64,000 bases of DNA from a bacterium SCSIO 12643 (GTDB taxonomy: Bacteria > Bacteroidota > Bacteroidia > Flavobacteriales_G > Salibacteraceae): the NCBI GenBank assembly GCA_024398135.1, contig CP073750.1, forward strand, positions 1,302,001 through 1,366,000, given 5' to 3'. The stretch's first letter is position 1, and the number at the start of each line of letters is the position of its first letter. Of this stretch, positions 7,678 through 57,273 are shown piece after piece. The notes beneath the pieces were generated by a model that was given only the letters and a program-made list of their open reading frames with translations, ran no database searches and had not been told where the DNA came from. A program made the position numbers and the translations under genes.

Positions 7678-8568
7678 CTATTTAGAACTTTTTATCAGAC
7701 TAATTCCTCCCAAAATCACAAACACAAATACCAATTGGATCATGTTAAATTCTTCTCCATCCAGGATTCCCCATAAGATGGCTATAATTGGAATTAAATA
7801 AGTAACCGAAGAAGCAAATAAAGCCGTGGTATGTTTAATCAGCATATTGAATACCAACACTGCTATTGCTGTTCCTACAACCGCAAGAATAGCAATATAG
7901 CCAAAGCTTTCTATACCACCTGGTTTCTGAATATTCGATACAAAATCAGAAATTCCAAATAAATAGATTCCCGCCAATGGACCAATCATGGCAAACGACC
8001 AGGCAGTAACCGCAACAGGATTAATATTTTGAAGGTAAGTTTTAATGATATTTACATTAATCCCATACGAGGCCGAAGCAATGATCGGGAGTATCATGAA
8101 TATCGTAAAACTCTGCGCAACTTTATGTTCTGCCGAGAAATAAATCAGCCCTACAGCCCCAATTAAACCCAGGCTTACTCCGATCATACTGATCCGTCTT
8201 ACTTTTTGCTTAAAAAAGAAAACTGCAATTATCAGAGTAAATAAGGGAGTCAAAGAATTTAATATTCCACTTAATGAACTACTGATCTCGGTTTGAGCCG
8301 TAACAAATAAAAAGTACGGTAATGCACTTCCGAAAATCCCCACGGCAAAAAACCACCATCTATTGCTCGGCTTTAATGCTGAAAAATGTTGAATCGTACT
8401 GGGCAATAAAACCGCAAATACCAAAAACATCCTCAAAGCCGCAATTTCATCAGCCGGAAATACTTCTAAACCACGTTTCATTAAAATAAACGAACTCCCC
8501 CAAATAATAGAGAGAAAAGCCAGTGTGGCAATTTGAACCGGCCGAGATTTAAAATTGATTCTTTGCAT
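7678..8568 (-). CDS. EamA/DMT-family transporter
   Basis: A 296-residue inner-membrane protein with about ten hydrophobic segments arranged as two five-helix EamA repeats. IIWGSSFILMKRGLEVFP near the N-terminus and the paired glycine-rich helices are typical of drug/metabolite transporters. I chose the ATG at 8568 because the upstream TTG alternative at 8577 falls inside a good promoter box. The substrate cannot be read from sequence. The family includes amino-acid and metabolite exporters. It is separated from the upstream nadE-type operon by about 100 bases and has its own promoter. Confidence 0.85.
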   Translation of the reverse strand: MQRINFKSRPVQIATLAFLSIIWGSSFILMKRGLEVFPADEIAALRMFLVFAVLLPSTIQHFSALKPSNRWWFFAVGIFGSALPYFLFVTAQTEISSSLSGILNSLTPLFTLIIAVFFFKQKVRRISMIGVSLGLIGAVGLIYFSAEHKVAQSFTIFMILPIIASASYGINVNIIKTYLQNINPVAVTAWSFAMIGPLAGIYLFGISDFVSNIQKPGGIESFGYIAILAVVGTAIAVLVFNMLIKHTTALFASSVTYLIPIIAILWGILDGEEFNMIQLVFVFVILGGISLIKSSK

Positions 8569-8574
8569 TGGCGG

Positions 8575-8582
8575 CAAATGTA
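8575..8582 (-). promoter_or_regulatory. -7 promoter box (TACATTTG) almost touching the EamA start codon
   Basis: TAnnTTTG consensus on the minus strand with only six bases (CCGCCA) between it and the ATG at 8568. The usual transcript start about seven bases on would fall on the ATG, implying a leaderless or nearly leaderless mRNA. Confidence 0.55.
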
Positions 8583-8665: not shown

Positions 8666-9727
8666 TTAGGTAAAAAGATAGCGATGCACTTTTTCATTAT
8701 CTGCCCGCCAAATCACGTTATCAATAAAATAGTGATGAATATTGATAAACACAGAGAACAAAAACAAAAACAGGCCTTGTCCAAAAAGATCATGATTATA
8801 TGGAATCGTAACATCCATTACGCGCGGTAATGCCTCGAAGAAAACAACTCCTGTTAGCACAGCAAATGCGATATAAGCCACCACCCATTTAGCCACATGA
8901 TTTTTATTTTCAATTTGCGCTGTGATCTCGTTCTTTTTTAGCGCGATCACAAAGGTGAAATACTGAATAGAATGGAAAAACGGCACCGCTAGATTATACA
9001 CCGGGTCATACAAGATAGGAAGAAACCAGGCATAAATAGACAAGAAACTAATAATGGAAATGAATGGAGGCCATTCTTTAGTTTTCAAAATTCTTCGAAG
9101 CATCAATAGGCCAAAAACCATTAATGTCACTGCCGTAACTCCATATGAGATGTAAATACTATACTTTGGAAAATTCAGCGACTCATATGGAATTCCCCAA
9201 TATTCCAAACCGGAATTTTCACCAATATTAAATGACAAAAATGACGTAATCCATAAAGCATACATATTCACTTTTAGAGCCCATCTTTCCCAATGGCTAT
9301 AAAAGTATTTCTTCATACTCGAGGTCACCATCACTGCGCCATAGGCCTGCTTGGTATAATGCCACCCCACAATGACAAACATAAACTCCACGAAATAGGC
9401 CAACATATCTGGACTTTGCTCCACCATGGACCAAATGATATACAATAGAAGCAAAACTGGGACAACAATCCCCGCCCAGATAAACCGATAATCTTTGAGC
9501 AAAAGATGTCTGTAATCACTATATAAAAGTTGATATGATACGGTAAAGTGGGGATAATTAACTACAAAAGCAACAATGTATAGCGAAATGCCAACTTGGT
9601 CCGATAACCCGGCATCATTTGAAATAAAAAAAAGAAAAATGGGTAATATAACTACCGATAATCCCCCAATAGTCAACCAATCTATTTTCGAAGAAAGAAG
9701 ATATGAATGACGTAAAGATTGTTTCAT
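8666..9727 (-). CDS. Uncharacterised polytopic membrane protein with four histidine motifs
   Basis: I cannot name this family. The protein is 353 residues with about nine or ten transmembrane segments. Histidines sit in well-defined motifs at the membrane edges: NYPHF (57-61), GWHYTKQAYG (121-130), FHSIQYF (251-257) and NIHHYFID (329-336), followed by VIWR. Such a set suggests a metal or haem centre, by analogy with membrane di-metal oxygenases and Brp/Blh-type proteins, but no known signature is complete. The gene starts one base after the nadE stop codon, so the two are surely co-transcribed. Confidence 0.7.
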   Translation of the reverse strand: MKQSLRHSYLLSSKIDWLTIGGLSVVILPIFLFFISNDAGLSDQVGISLYIVAFVVNYPHFTVSYQLLYSDYRHLLLKDYRFIWAGIVVPVLLLLYIIWSMVEQSPDMLAYFVEFMFVIVGWHYTKQAYGAVMVTSSMKKYFYSHWERWALKVNMYALWITSFLSFNIGENSGLEYWGIPYESLNFPKYSIYISYGVTAVTLMVFGLLMLRRILKTKEWPPFISIISFLSIYAWFLPILYDPVYNLAVPFFHSIQYFTFVIALKKNEITAQIENKNHVAKWVVAYIAFAVLTGVVFFEALPRVMDVTIPYNHDLFGQGLFLFLFSVFINIHHYFIDNVIWRADNEKVHRYLFT

Positions 9728-28826: not shown

Positions 28827-29429
28827 TTAACTTAAATATTGATTGATTAATTTGATTCCTTTTTCATTTGCAATCCCTCTGATGTGATAGTTGAATATCT
28901 GGAAATAATATTCAGACATCGCAATACCACTGGATAAGAATTTTGTGTTTTGAAAAATTCCCTGTACCACCGATACATAAATTTCTGCAATAAGATCTAT
29001 ATTCATATCATCTCTATACAGACCTTCATCTATACCTTGTTGGAGATTGCTTTTTGTAACTTCTAGTATGGTTTTATCTTCAAAATTTCTGATAATCGCC
29101 CAGGCTTCCGGGTGATATTTTTGAAGGTCGTAAAAAATGGAAGGATGAATCTGTTTCATTTTTTCCCCTGCGATCTTACTGAAGTTAATCACTTCCTCAA
29201 CCGCATTACTTGAAACATCACAGGCTTCATTTATTTCGCACTCATTGGTTTCAATGTGAAATAGAATACACTTCTTCACCAAATCATTTTTGTCAGACAC
29301 ATAGTTATATAATGTCTTCTTTGATATTCCCAACTTGCTGGCAATATCATTCATCGTTAAACTTTTTATACCAAAACTTAAAAAGATTTGAGATGCTTTA
29401 ATAATTAATTCTTTCTCTTTTTCACTCAT
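28827..29429 (-). CDS. TetR/AcrR-family regulator of the RND efflux operon
   Basis: A 200-residue regulator. The N-terminal helix-turn-helix is clear (IIKASQIFLSFGIKSLTMND, SKLGISKKTLYNYVSDKNDL), followed by an all-helical ligand-binding domain. I take the ATG at 29429; a TTG three codons upstream lies in the promoter box. The gene is first in the tetR-tolC-adaptor-pump operon, so it most likely represses its own operon. A 10-bp inverted repeat at 29461-29490, just upstream of the promoter box, is a candidate operator. Confidence 0.92.
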   Translation of the reverse strand: MSEKEKELIIKASQIFLSFGIKSLTMNDIASKLGISKKTLYNYVSDKNDLVKKCILFHIETNECEINEACDVSSNAVEEVINFSKIAGEKMKQIHPSIFYDLQKYHPEAWAIIRNFEDKTILEVTKSNLQQGIDEGLYRDDMNIDLIAEIYVSVVQGIFQNTKFLSSGIAMSEYYFQIFNYHIRGIANEKGIKLINQYLS

Positions 29430-29435
29430 CGGCCG

Positions 29436-29443
29436 CAAATGTA
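29436..29443 (-). promoter_or_regulatory. -7 promoter box (TACATTTG) of the efflux operon
   Basis: TAnnTTTG match on the minus strand, separated by six bases (CGGCCG) from the regulator ATG at 29429. The transcript would start at or next to the ATG. Confidence 0.6.
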
Positions 29444-29460
29444 AATCGCATTTCCGATAT

Positions 29461-29490
29461 AGGAAACGTTTTTCGGGTAAAATGTTTCCT
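29461..29490. promoter_or_regulatory. Candidate TetR operator of the efflux operon
   Basis: AGGAAACGTT and AATGTTTCCT form an inverted repeat matching at 9 of 10 positions with a 10-base spacer. It sits 18 bases upstream of the -7 box, over the expected -33 region, a sensible repressor position. The link to the regulator is inferred. Confidence 0.45.
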
Positions 29491-29629
29491 AAGTAACGTT
29501 AAAAAACTCAAAAGCCAATTAAATACTTAAATAACAGTGTTTTAAGCATGATTTTGTTTTATCACATTTTTACACTTTTTTGGATGAATGGCAACTTCAA
29601 ATACTTGAAGAGTGAAAAAAGAGCACAAA

Positions 29630-36782: not shown

Positions 36783-37322
36783 ATGTTTCAACTCGAACGC
36801 ACAAAACAGCTGGTATCACTGACCTTTTTATGGGTTCTATTCTTATGTGCTGCACCTGCTTTTGGTCAATATTCGCTTGGGTTAGACAAAAAAGGGAAAG
36901 TTAAACGCATCCATTTTTATGCAGGTGATCATATTAAAATCAAATTGTTAACCAAAGAAAAAGTCGTTGGCCGAATTGATGCTATTTATGATTCTTCTTT
37001 TGTGATCGAAGGGCGTAAAATTAACCTCACAGATGTCGATCGGGTATATAGTGTGAGAAAGGGCTTAAGATTTTTAGGAGGCGCCCTGGTGGTATCTGGT
37101 TCTTTTTTCTTCACGTTAGATGCCATTAATAATATTTTAAATTATAGTGCACGTGGATATGTGATCAGTAATTCAGTTTGGCTCCCTTCGGCTATAGCAG
37201 TAGGCACGGGAGCAATTATTTACTTTTTTAGCACCCGAAGGACCAAGGTAGCCGGAAAAGGAAATTTCAGAGTATTCAACACTTCTCCAATCCCTATCAC
37301 CGATCAAAACACAGAGCCATGA
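36783..37322 (+). CDS. Uncharacterised exported membrane protein
   Basis: I start at the ATG at 36783 (179 residues), which gives a signal peptide ending at PAFGQ; an in-frame ATG 54 bases upstream would precede it with an unlikely leader. A small beta-rich domain follows (KVKRIHFYAGDHIKIKLLTKEKVVGRI), then two hydrophobic segments (about 95-115 and 135-155) and a basic tail. The first domain resembles small SH3-like barrels but I cannot assign a family. Its last four bases overlap the start of the next lipoprotein gene, so the two are translated together. Confidence 0.6.
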   Translation: MFQLERTKQLVSLTFLWVLFLCAAPAFGQYSLGLDKKGKVKRIHFYAGDHIKIKLLTKEKVVGRIDAIYDSSFVIEGRKINLTDVDRVYSVRKGLRFLGGALVVSGSFFFTLDAINNILNYSARGYVISNSVWLPSAIAVGTGAIIYFFSTRRTKVAGKGNFRVFNTSPIPITDQNTEP

Positions 37323-37660
37323 AATATCTTATCATTTTCGCATTTTTGATTTCCACTTCATGTGCCAATCAAAAGATCATTGAATCTCAACCCGATCCTG
37401 TTCCTACGCAAACACAAAAATGTGATGACGGTGTTTCAGCCACACTCAAAAAAATACAATTAGATGGTTGTAATTGGGTGATTGAGTTAGATCAAGAGGA
37501 AAAACTAGAACCTCAAAACATTAGAGACTTCCTTTCAGAATCTGACTTTAGCTCATCAAAAGAGTTTAAGGTTAAAATCCAGTATTACGAGACGAAATCT
37601 GCCAGCATTTGTATGGTGGGGAAAACTATCGCGATTACTTGTTTGGAAATTGTGCCTTAA
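37319..37660 (+). CDS. Small uncharacterised lipoprotein
   Basis: A 113-residue protein with a lipobox (STSC, Cys15), then a short linker rich in Pro/Gln/Thr and a compact domain with four further cysteines (KCDDG, LDGCNW, SICMVG and the near-terminal TCLEIV). These could form two disulfides in the periplasm. I do not recognise the family. It overlaps the preceding membrane protein gene by four bases (ATGA), which suggests a functional pair in the envelope. Confidence 0.6.
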   Translation: MKYLIIFAFLISTSCANQKIIESQPDPVPTQTQKCDDGVSATLKKIQLDGCNWVIELDQEEKLEPQNIRDFLSESDFSSSKEFKVKIQYYETKSASICMVGKTIAITCLEIVP

Positions 37661-37719: not shown

Positions 37720-37727
37720 TACTTTTG
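37720..37727 (+). promoter_or_regulatory. -7 promoter box (TACTTTTG) five bases before the queA ATG
   Basis: TAnnTTTG match followed by CGGTC and then the ATG at 37733. A transcript starting at the usual distance would begin on or next to the start codon. Confidence 0.6.
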
Positions 37728-37732
37728 CGGTC

Positions 37733-38941
37733 ATGAAAAATCAGGTTCAAAATCTTTCCATTGGTGATTTCACTTATGAATTACCAGCTGATAGAATTGC
37801 AAAGAAACCAGCAGAGAATAGATCTGGATCAAAATTATTGATTTACGAGAATCAACATATTTCGGAGTCTACATTTGATCAGCTTCCACAAGTTTTAGAT
37901 CCAAATTCTCATTTAGTATTTAACAATACAAAAGTTGTTCAGGCGCGGATCATTTTCCAGAACCGAAATGGTCGTGATATTGAAATTTTCTGTCTGGAAC
38001 CCGCTGGAGAAAATATCGACTTGAGTATTGCCATGTCCACTCAAAAAAGCACACAATGGATTTGCTTAGTGGGAGGAGCTAAAAAATGGAAGGAGCCTTT
38101 TTTAGCTATTTCCGATCAAAATGGTTTTGAACTCAAAGCAGAGCTTACTGAAAGATTGGATGGTGAATTTCTCATTACATTTAACTGGACACCTGAACAA
38201 TTGACTTTTTCTGAGGTTTTGGAAAATGTAGGTAAGATTCCCTTACCGCCATATATCAAAAGGGATGTCACGGATTCTGATAAAGACCGATATCAAACGG
38301 TCTTTGCCAAAGAAGAAGGTTCAGTTGCAGCTCCAACTGCGGGGCTACATTTCACAAAGAATATTCTCCACCAACTCCAAAGTCAACAAATTTCATCCTC
38401 ACAAATTACATTACATGTGGGAGCCGGAACCTTCAAACCGGTATCTTCAGATACCATGAAAGATCATCCCATGCACGCAGAATGGATAGAAGTAGATCTT
38501 TCTACTATTCAGGAATTGGCTACTACCGACAAAAGGATCACACCGGTTGGAACGACATCTATGCGTACCTTAGAAAGTTTATATTGGTTTGGTGTAAAAA
38601 TATTGACTCATCCAGAAACTAATCTCTCCGAACTAGGACAATGGGACGCTTATGAACTTCCTCAAGATTATTCTAAAACAGAAGCTCTAAATGCACTTGC
38701 TGGTTATCTTGAAGCAAATAAAGTCACGCATTTTATGGCAAAGTCCAGATTAATCATTGCTCCAGGATATACGCCAAGAATTTGTGGTGCTTTGATCACC
38801 AACTTCCACCAACCGGGTAGTACTCTTTTACTATTGGTTTCAGCATTGGTTGGTGAAAATTGGAAAGACATCTACCAATACGCACTTCAAAATGATTTCC
38901 GTTTCTTAAGTTACGGGGATTCGAATTATTTAAAGTTTTAA
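37733..38941 (+). CDS. queA: SAM:tRNA ribosyltransferase-isomerase (QueA family, long form)
   Basis: QueA transfers and isomerises the ribosyl part of SAM onto preQ1 in tRNA to make epoxyqueuosine. Family landmarks are FNNTKVVQARI, PTAGLHFT, HVGAGTFKPV and TTSMRTLES, with GSTLLLLVSALVG and FLSYGDSNYL at the end. It is 402 residues against about 340-350 for typical QueA; the extra 50-60 residues lie mainly between the LES motif and the PGYTPRICGALITNFHQPGS segment. MHAEWIEV replaces the usual MHSEYY. It may be a QueA paralog with changed substrate or tRNA choice. purN follows 29 bases later. Confidence 0.88.
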   Translation: MKNQVQNLSIGDFTYELPADRIAKKPAENRSGSKLLIYENQHISESTFDQLPQVLDPNSHLVFNNTKVVQARIIFQNRNGRDIEIFCLEPAGENIDLSIAMSTQKSTQWICLVGGAKKWKEPFLAISDQNGFELKAELTERLDGEFLITFNWTPEQLTFSEVLENVGKIPLPPYIKRDVTDSDKDRYQTVFAKEEGSVAAPTAGLHFTKNILHQLQSQQISSSQITLHVGAGTFKPVSSDTMKDHPMHAEWIEVDLSTIQELATTDKRITPVGTTSMRTLESLYWFGVKILTHPETNLSELGQWDAYELPQDYSKTEALNALAGYLEANKVTHFMAKSRLIIAPGYTPRICGALITNFHQPGSTLLLLVSALVGENWKDIYQYALQNDFRFLSYGDSNYLKF

Positions 38942-56640: not shown

Positions 56641-56668
56641 GTTGGTATGCGTTTAGGCGCATACCAAC
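56641..56668 (+). terminator. Hairpin after serS
   Basis: A perfect 11-bp stem GTTGGTATGCG / CGCATACCAAC with a 6-base loop, followed by TTCTTATTTT. Confidence 0.65.
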
Positions 56669-56706
56669 TTCTTATTTTGATCCATCGTGATCAATAGAAA
56701 TTGCAA

Positions 56707-56714
56707 TACTTTTG
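56707..56714 (+). promoter_or_regulatory. -7 promoter box (TACTTTTG) four bases before a start codon
   Basis: TAnnTTTG match with TTTT between it and the ATG at 56719, so the transcript should begin within the first codons or right at the ATG. The apparent earlier TTG start at 56701 is upstream of the promoter. Confidence 0.55.
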
Positions 56715-56718
56715 TTTT

Positions 56719-57273
56719 ATGCGACTTATTTCTTCAAAATTCATTTTAGTTCTCTTCTTTTCGAGCGCCATCATTTCATGCGTAAGTGAAAAAACGCAAC
56801 AAAAAACATTGGCTATTGGGAAGCTACAAACCCAGGTAGACTCCTGTAATAAAGAATTCAAAACACTGGATTTAGAAAAAATCAAGGCCTATAAAACCAA
56901 CGCTAAAACTCAGCTTGATTTTTTAGAGCAAAATTTCCACGACACCAATTTCCAAAGTGCACGATTTATTGATGTGTATTACAGGAACTATAAACTGATG
57001 ACCAAAATCATCAAAGGCGCAGATCGTCTAAAATCGGAAATCACCTATTCTCAAAGTCAATTGGAAAAATTGCATAATGATGTGGAAAATGGCTTTTTCA
57101 CGGATTCCCTTTATCAAGAATATTTTGATGGGGAACAAAAAGCAGTAGAAAAAATTAAAAATACTACTAAAGTATTATCCGACTGGGAGACTAAATCCAT
57201 CAACAGATATGATGGCATGACCACATCTATCGATTCTGTAATTACTGAATTACAAAATCAAGGCTACCGTTAA
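56719..57273 (+). CDS. Uncharacterised coiled-coil lipoprotein
   Basis: I start at the ATG at 56719 (184 residues). A lipobox (IISC, Cys21) follows a hydrophobic signal (MRLISSKFILVLFFSSAI). The mature protein is almost entirely helical with heptad-like patterns (about 35-80 and 95-180). No family is recognised. It lies six bases ahead of a small double-membrane-span protein, so both may belong to one envelope assembly. Confidence 0.65.
   Translation: MRLISSKFILVLFFSSAIISCVSEKTQQKTLAIGKLQTQVDSCNKEFKTLDLEKIKAYKTNAKTQLDFLEQNFHDTNFQSARFIDVYYRNYKLMTKIIKGADRLKSEITYSQSQLEKLHNDVENGFFTDSLYQEYFDGEQKAVEKIKNTTKVLSDWETKSINRYDGMTTSIDSVITELQNQGYR

Follow-up and report, generated by a model that had tools for sequence, protein, structure and literature searches.

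Genes and promoter boxes in the window

The window, a stretch of 64,000 bases, corresponds to positions 1,302,001-1,366,000 of a single-contig genome of 4,118,273 bases. It was inspected for genes preceded at very short distance by the -7 promoter box of the Bacteroidota, TAnnTTTG. The relevant features are as follows.

7678..8568, minus strand: EamA-family transporter gene, ATG start (Pfam EamA, E 3.3e-39)
8575..8582, minus strand: -7 promoter box TACATTTG, followed by CCGCCA (6 bases) and the EamA ATG at 8568
28827..29429, minus strand: TetR-family regulator gene (Pfam TetR_N)
29436..29443, minus strand: -7 promoter box TACATTTG, followed by CGGCCG (6 bases) and the TetR ATG at 29429
29460..29491, upstream of the TetR box: operator-like inverted repeat (TAGGAAACGTTTT / AAAATGTTTCCTA)
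37720..37727, plus strand: -7 promoter box TACTTTTG, followed by CGGTC (5 bases) and the queA ATG at 37733
37733..38941, plus strand: queA-family gene, ATG start (Pfam Queuosine_synth, E 8.3e-97)
56641..56678, plus strand: intrinsic terminator 3' of the upstream gene, with a stem at 56641-56668 and then TTCTTATTTT
56707..56714, plus strand: -7 promoter box TACTTTTG, followed by TTTT (4 bases) and the lipoprotein ATG at 56719
56719..57273, plus strand: lipoprotein-like gene, ATG start

An earlier note on this DNA had reported TAnnTTTG ahead of four ATGs with gaps of 6, 6, 5 and 4 bases, and both the coordinates and the gaps proved correct. All four boxes also matched TAHHTTTG, and the start codon was ATG in every case. 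Among the 52 genes called in the window, four had a box at a gap of 4-6 bases and 13 had a box within 51 bases.

The TetR gene is the first of a TetR-OEP-HlyD-AcrB efflux cluster (Pfam TetR_N, OEP, HlyD_D23 and ACR_tran). Based on this position and the upstream inverted repeat, the regulator is likely to control its own expression. A similar inverted repeat was visible upstream of the TetR orthologs in G001, G002 and G003.

No Pfam match was found for the lipoprotein-like gene. The terminator ahead of it has a predicted fold of -20.9 kcal/mol (z -6.0), and between this terminator and the ATG the box at 56707-56714 was the only one in the motif list of the window. In several relatives the lipoprotein gene lies close behind its upstream neighbour, whereas in this genome the terminator stands between them. 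The box was found in none of the upstream sequences of seven relatives (0/7). Since the terminator separates off the upstream gene and no other box precedes the ATG, a lineage-specific promoter for the lipoprotein gene is likely.

Two QueA-family genes were found in the genome, the copy in the window (37733-38941) and a second at G000:C1:2046073-2046876. The window copy is of a long (402 aa), divergent form common to many Bacteroidota.

Box-to-start distances across the genome

The earlier note had suggested a genome scan against controls, and the outcome depended on what was counted. Across the whole window, TANNTTTG occurred 74 times against 82.0 expected. In the raw genome, the pattern TANNTTTGN{4,6}ATG was found 139+120 = 259 times compared to 137+126 = 263 for the reversed control. 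Neither count showed an excess, as might be expected if the four boxes were chance matches in AT-rich intergenic DNA and the true promoters lay farther upstream. However, in raw motif counts gene starts are diluted by coding DNA, and they were therefore replaced with counts at called starts. These starts came from a home-made gene caller that scores coding hexamers and takes no account of upstream signals. Over 1.6 Mb of the genome it gave 1,162 genes; it overlooked a small ORF ahead of queA (37319-37660). After 61 of these were dropped as non-ATG or too close to an end, 1,101 ATG-start genes remained.

On the sense strand of these genes, TAHHTTTG was found at gaps 0-3 in 1, 1, 0 and 2 genes, and at gaps 4, 5 and 6 in 15, 12 and 4 genes, respectively. 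It was then scarce at gaps 7-13 (3, 1, 1, 2, 0, 1 and 1 genes, nine in all), and a second, broad mode of distances began from about gap 16. The 27 genes at gaps 4-5 compare with a mean of 1.46 in a Markov simulation and a maximum of 5 in 300 simulations, so that at called ATG starts the enrichment was strong. For gap 6, the distance of two of the four window sites, four genes were seen where 0.75 would be expected, and the simulations reached up to 5. Gap 6 by position alone therefore does not exceed chance, a point in favour of chance matches.

The peak at gaps 4 and 5 was missing from six permuted motifs and from the antisense strand. It was also specific to the start codon: the 15 and 12 cases at gene-start ATGs contrast with at most one each for out-of-frame or other in-frame ATGs nearby, and the rate at 9,417 internal in-frame ATGs would predict no more than 0.35 genes for any one gap from 4 to 6. 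With looser rules for choosing starts, the profile was similar (16, 12 and 4 at gaps 4, 5 and 6). No clear gap-4/5 peak was seen for GTG and TTG starts in this genome (one GTG and two TTG cases). According to the simulation, about two chance cases would be expected among all 1,101 genes, which argues against chance matches, as does the enrichment itself.

Genes with a box at gap 4-6 and their relatives

Three sets of genes were compared: 36 with TANNTTTG at gap 4-6 (the leaderless set), 201 with the box at gaps 14-45 (leadered) and 823 that were box-free; 41 genes whose boxes lay at other gaps were excluded. Only 3/36 genes of the leaderless set and 12/201 leadered genes had a same-strand neighbour no more than 40 bases upstream, compared to 321/823 of the box-free genes (Fisher p 7e-5 for 3/36 against 321/823). 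The genes of the leaderless set were thus placed as first genes of transcription units, a bias that speaks against chance matches. The bases just before their ATG were also unusual. The -1 base was C or T in 28/36, with C in 47% compared to 14% in both leadered and box-free genes, and A at -2 was seen in 8% compared to 48% and 36%, respectively. For the gap-5 genes, the -1 base was C or T in 11/12, which suggests that the A of the ATG may be the first transcribed base. The leaderless set included a SUI1-family translation initiation factor gene (G000:C1:805058-805399, L121:5058-5399; TAACTTTG, gap 4) and RNA-modification genes, encoding MiaE, an RlmL-like protein, RsmG/GidB and QueA, which hints at a possible enrichment of such functions.

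If the boxes were real promoters but the annotated ATGs wrong, translation would begin at a downstream in-frame ATG behind a normal leader. Such an ATG within about 30 codons was present in 12/36 genes of the set, including EamA and TetR, where the next one lies 29 and 25 codons on, respectively. It was absent, however, from the other 24, and 33/36 of the encoded proteins matched a Pfam family at E 0.001 or better, a few of them below Pfam's own cut-off; together, these make the starts hard to move. The sharp gap peak also belongs to the annotated ATG, and the similarity of queA, EamA and TetR to their orthologs in G001 and G002 extends to residue 1. Misplaced starts are accordingly regarded as extremely unlikely.

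A further alternative is that each gene has two promoters, the proximal box giving a leaderless form and a distal or non-housekeeping promoter a leadered form under some conditions. Sufficient room ahead of the gene to look for such a promoter was available for 34 members of the leaderless set; a second TAHHTTTG upstream was found in three of these and was absent from the other 31. Alternative sigma motifs lacking the full box exist in Flavobacterium psychrophilum (PMC9723704), and a distal promoter without the consensus box could add longer transcripts. Such a dual arrangement is judged unlikely. No -33 motif (TTTG) was detectable, with TTG at its position in 6/36 leaderless, 31/201 leadered and 81/459 control genes; the -33 element is described as weak in Flavobacterium johnsoniae too (PMC6847099).

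Conservation of the boxes differed between genes. For TetR, the box lay 4-9 bases ahead of the start in 6/6 full-length orthologs, at gaps of 6 (G001, G002 and G005), 4 (G003) and 9 (G008 and G014). For EamA, it lay 4 bases ahead of the start in 5/12 orthologs. Both same-genus orthologs carried TACTTTTG 4 bases before ATG, and by-eye reading placed the box at gap 4 before an apparent GTG in G005 and G018 and before an apparent TTG in G022. The gap was 8 in G013 and G014, and the remaining 5/12 orthologs had no box near the start. The apparent GTG or TTG starts 4 bases after the box, seen in three EamA orthologs (L195, L199 and L200), suggest that leaderless starts without AUG may occur there.

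For queA, the box was 4-6 bases before the ATG in 3/46 relatives (L002, L011 and L018). This comparison was made without L025 (partial) and L184-L190 (partial or of a shorter paralog type), and L161-L163 in it are repeats of the present genome, L001 and L002. Within the genus, the gap was 4 in G001 (L002/L163) and 54 in G002 (L001/L162). The nearest named relatives by QueA protein were two uncultured Flavobacteriales metagenome assemblies, with 77% and 75% identity.

The absence of the box from the lipoprotein orthologs and from most distant queA orthologs would suit chance matches. Against this, the TetR box was kept throughout and the EamA box in part, and the strong terminator leaves the lipoprotein gene this one box. 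Taken with the enrichment and the first-gene bias, these observations make chance matches very unlikely.

In other Bacteroidota, boxes at gap 4-6 were found in 4/273 genes of G013 (Markov mean 0.39) and 6/294 of G040 (mean 0.80). Across 27 Bacteroidota loci, the count was 3/242 (mean 0.56), two of the three being queA genes that had been used as bait, while 0/538 genes were found in 53 non-Bacteroidota loci. In G013, gaps 7-9 were as frequent as gaps 4-6 (four and four), and the scarcity beyond gap 6 therefore does not hold everywhere. None of five distant orthologs of non-queA set members had the leaderless layout. Across these genomes, the predicted leaderless state turns over, with individual genes changing state.

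Predicted leaders and comparison with known systems

The box, its spacing, the genome-wide enrichment, the first-gene position and the partial conservation are all directly observed. They are best explained if ordinary housekeeping promoters of the Bacteroidota drive these genes and the transcripts are leaderless or nearly so, a reading that we consider highly probable. The primary sigma factor (sigma-ABfr type) would bind TAnnTTTG at -12 to -5, and transcription would start 4-5, perhaps 6, bases past the box, at or no more than 2 bases from the A of the AUG. The start codon would then open the mRNA, and translation would follow a 5'-AUG-dependent route rather than one through a leader. Both the actual transcript start and this route of translation we infer.

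The earlier note had put the transcript start about seven bases past the box. This distance does not agree with F. johnsoniae, where the box is reported to span -12 to -5 with 4 or 5 bases from box to start (PMC6847099), and a start seven bases past the box would fall inside the gene, so that the mRNA would lose all or part of its AUG. With a spacing of 4-5, gap 4 places +1 on the A of the ATG, and leaders would be 0-1 base long at gap 5 and 1-2 bases long at gap 6. Based on the box positions and this published spacing, the predicted transcript starts are 8570-8568 for EamA, 29431-29429 for TetR, 37732 or 37733 for queA and 56719 for the lipoprotein gene, and the leaders of these genes should be 0-2 bases. 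The low number of boxes at gaps 0-3 also fits a spacing of 4-5, as transcripts from them would lack the AUG. Support for the near-leaderless mRNAs proposed in the earlier note comes from the peak at gaps 4 and 5, the placement as first genes, the unusual -1 and -2 bases and the partial conservation.

Two further proposals of the earlier note held in part. These mRNAs were said to have no ribosome-binding site; this is less special than it appears, as Shine-Dalgarno sequences are seldom used in Bacteroidota anyway, about 0.1-7% in the examples tabulated for the phylum (PMC10783764). What the mRNAs would lack is an A-rich leader. The box was also said to decide the start codon. This applied to EamA and TetR, with an in-frame TTG inside the promoter box, and to the lipoprotein gene, with a TTG at 56701 just ahead of it, but not to queA, which has no in-frame alternative upstream. 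A box-to-start rule of 4-6 bases corrects annotation where, as in EamA and TetR, the in-frame TTG inside the box can mislead gene finders.

It is possible, though doubtful, that leaders in this lineage come in two discrete kinds, of 0-2 or at least about 10 bases, with lengths of 3-9 bases selected against. If so, initiation would follow two distinct routes, and there would be a permanent leaderless class, including queA, miaE, the RlmL-like gene, rsmG and the SUI1-family initiation factor, whose output might depend on the condition of the ribosome or initiation factors and not on leader sequence. The split in box distances in this genome (gap 4-6 against about 14 or more) provides a sequence-only listing of likely leaderless genes in uncultured Bacteroidota. 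Such lists would offer a test set for leaderless initiation by ribosomes that ignore Shine-Dalgarno sequences.

The arrangement with a promoter box just ahead of the start codon is real here and belongs to a known minority gene layout in Bacteroidota, of which these genes are a new instance. In F. psychrophilum, 5.5% of 890 mRNAs are reported as leaderless (PMC9723704), and in F. johnsoniae leaders were 10 nt or less in about 13% of genes with a probable promoter and longer than 10 nt in 87% (PMC6847099). Both share with the present genome the phylum, the TAnnTTTG box and a leaderless minority; the Flavobacterium evidence consists of RNA maps, whereas here the class was predicted from sequence by counting box-to-ATG distances. 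Bacteroides thetaiotaomicron, in which 5' UTRs of less than 10 nt make up about 3.7%, has the sigma-ABfr box in common with the genes described here, and the examples given for it are transposases, sensor kinases and transporters, in part different from these (PMC7366714). In the present genome, 31/220 (14%) of the TAHHTTTG boxes at gaps 0-45 lay at gap 4-6, which is of similar order to the published leaderless and short-leader fractions in the phylum. Nucleotide biases in Bacteroidetes have also been interpreted as possible leaderless signals (PMC5397173). The leaderless genes of Actinobacteria and Deinococcus-Thermus likewise have a promoter box immediately before the start codon but, unlike here, the box is TANNNT, lies about 10-12 bases away and is found for more than 20% of genes; the survey behind these figures took the E. 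coli-type box as its reference and listed the Bacteroidetes signals as atypical (PMC3160421).
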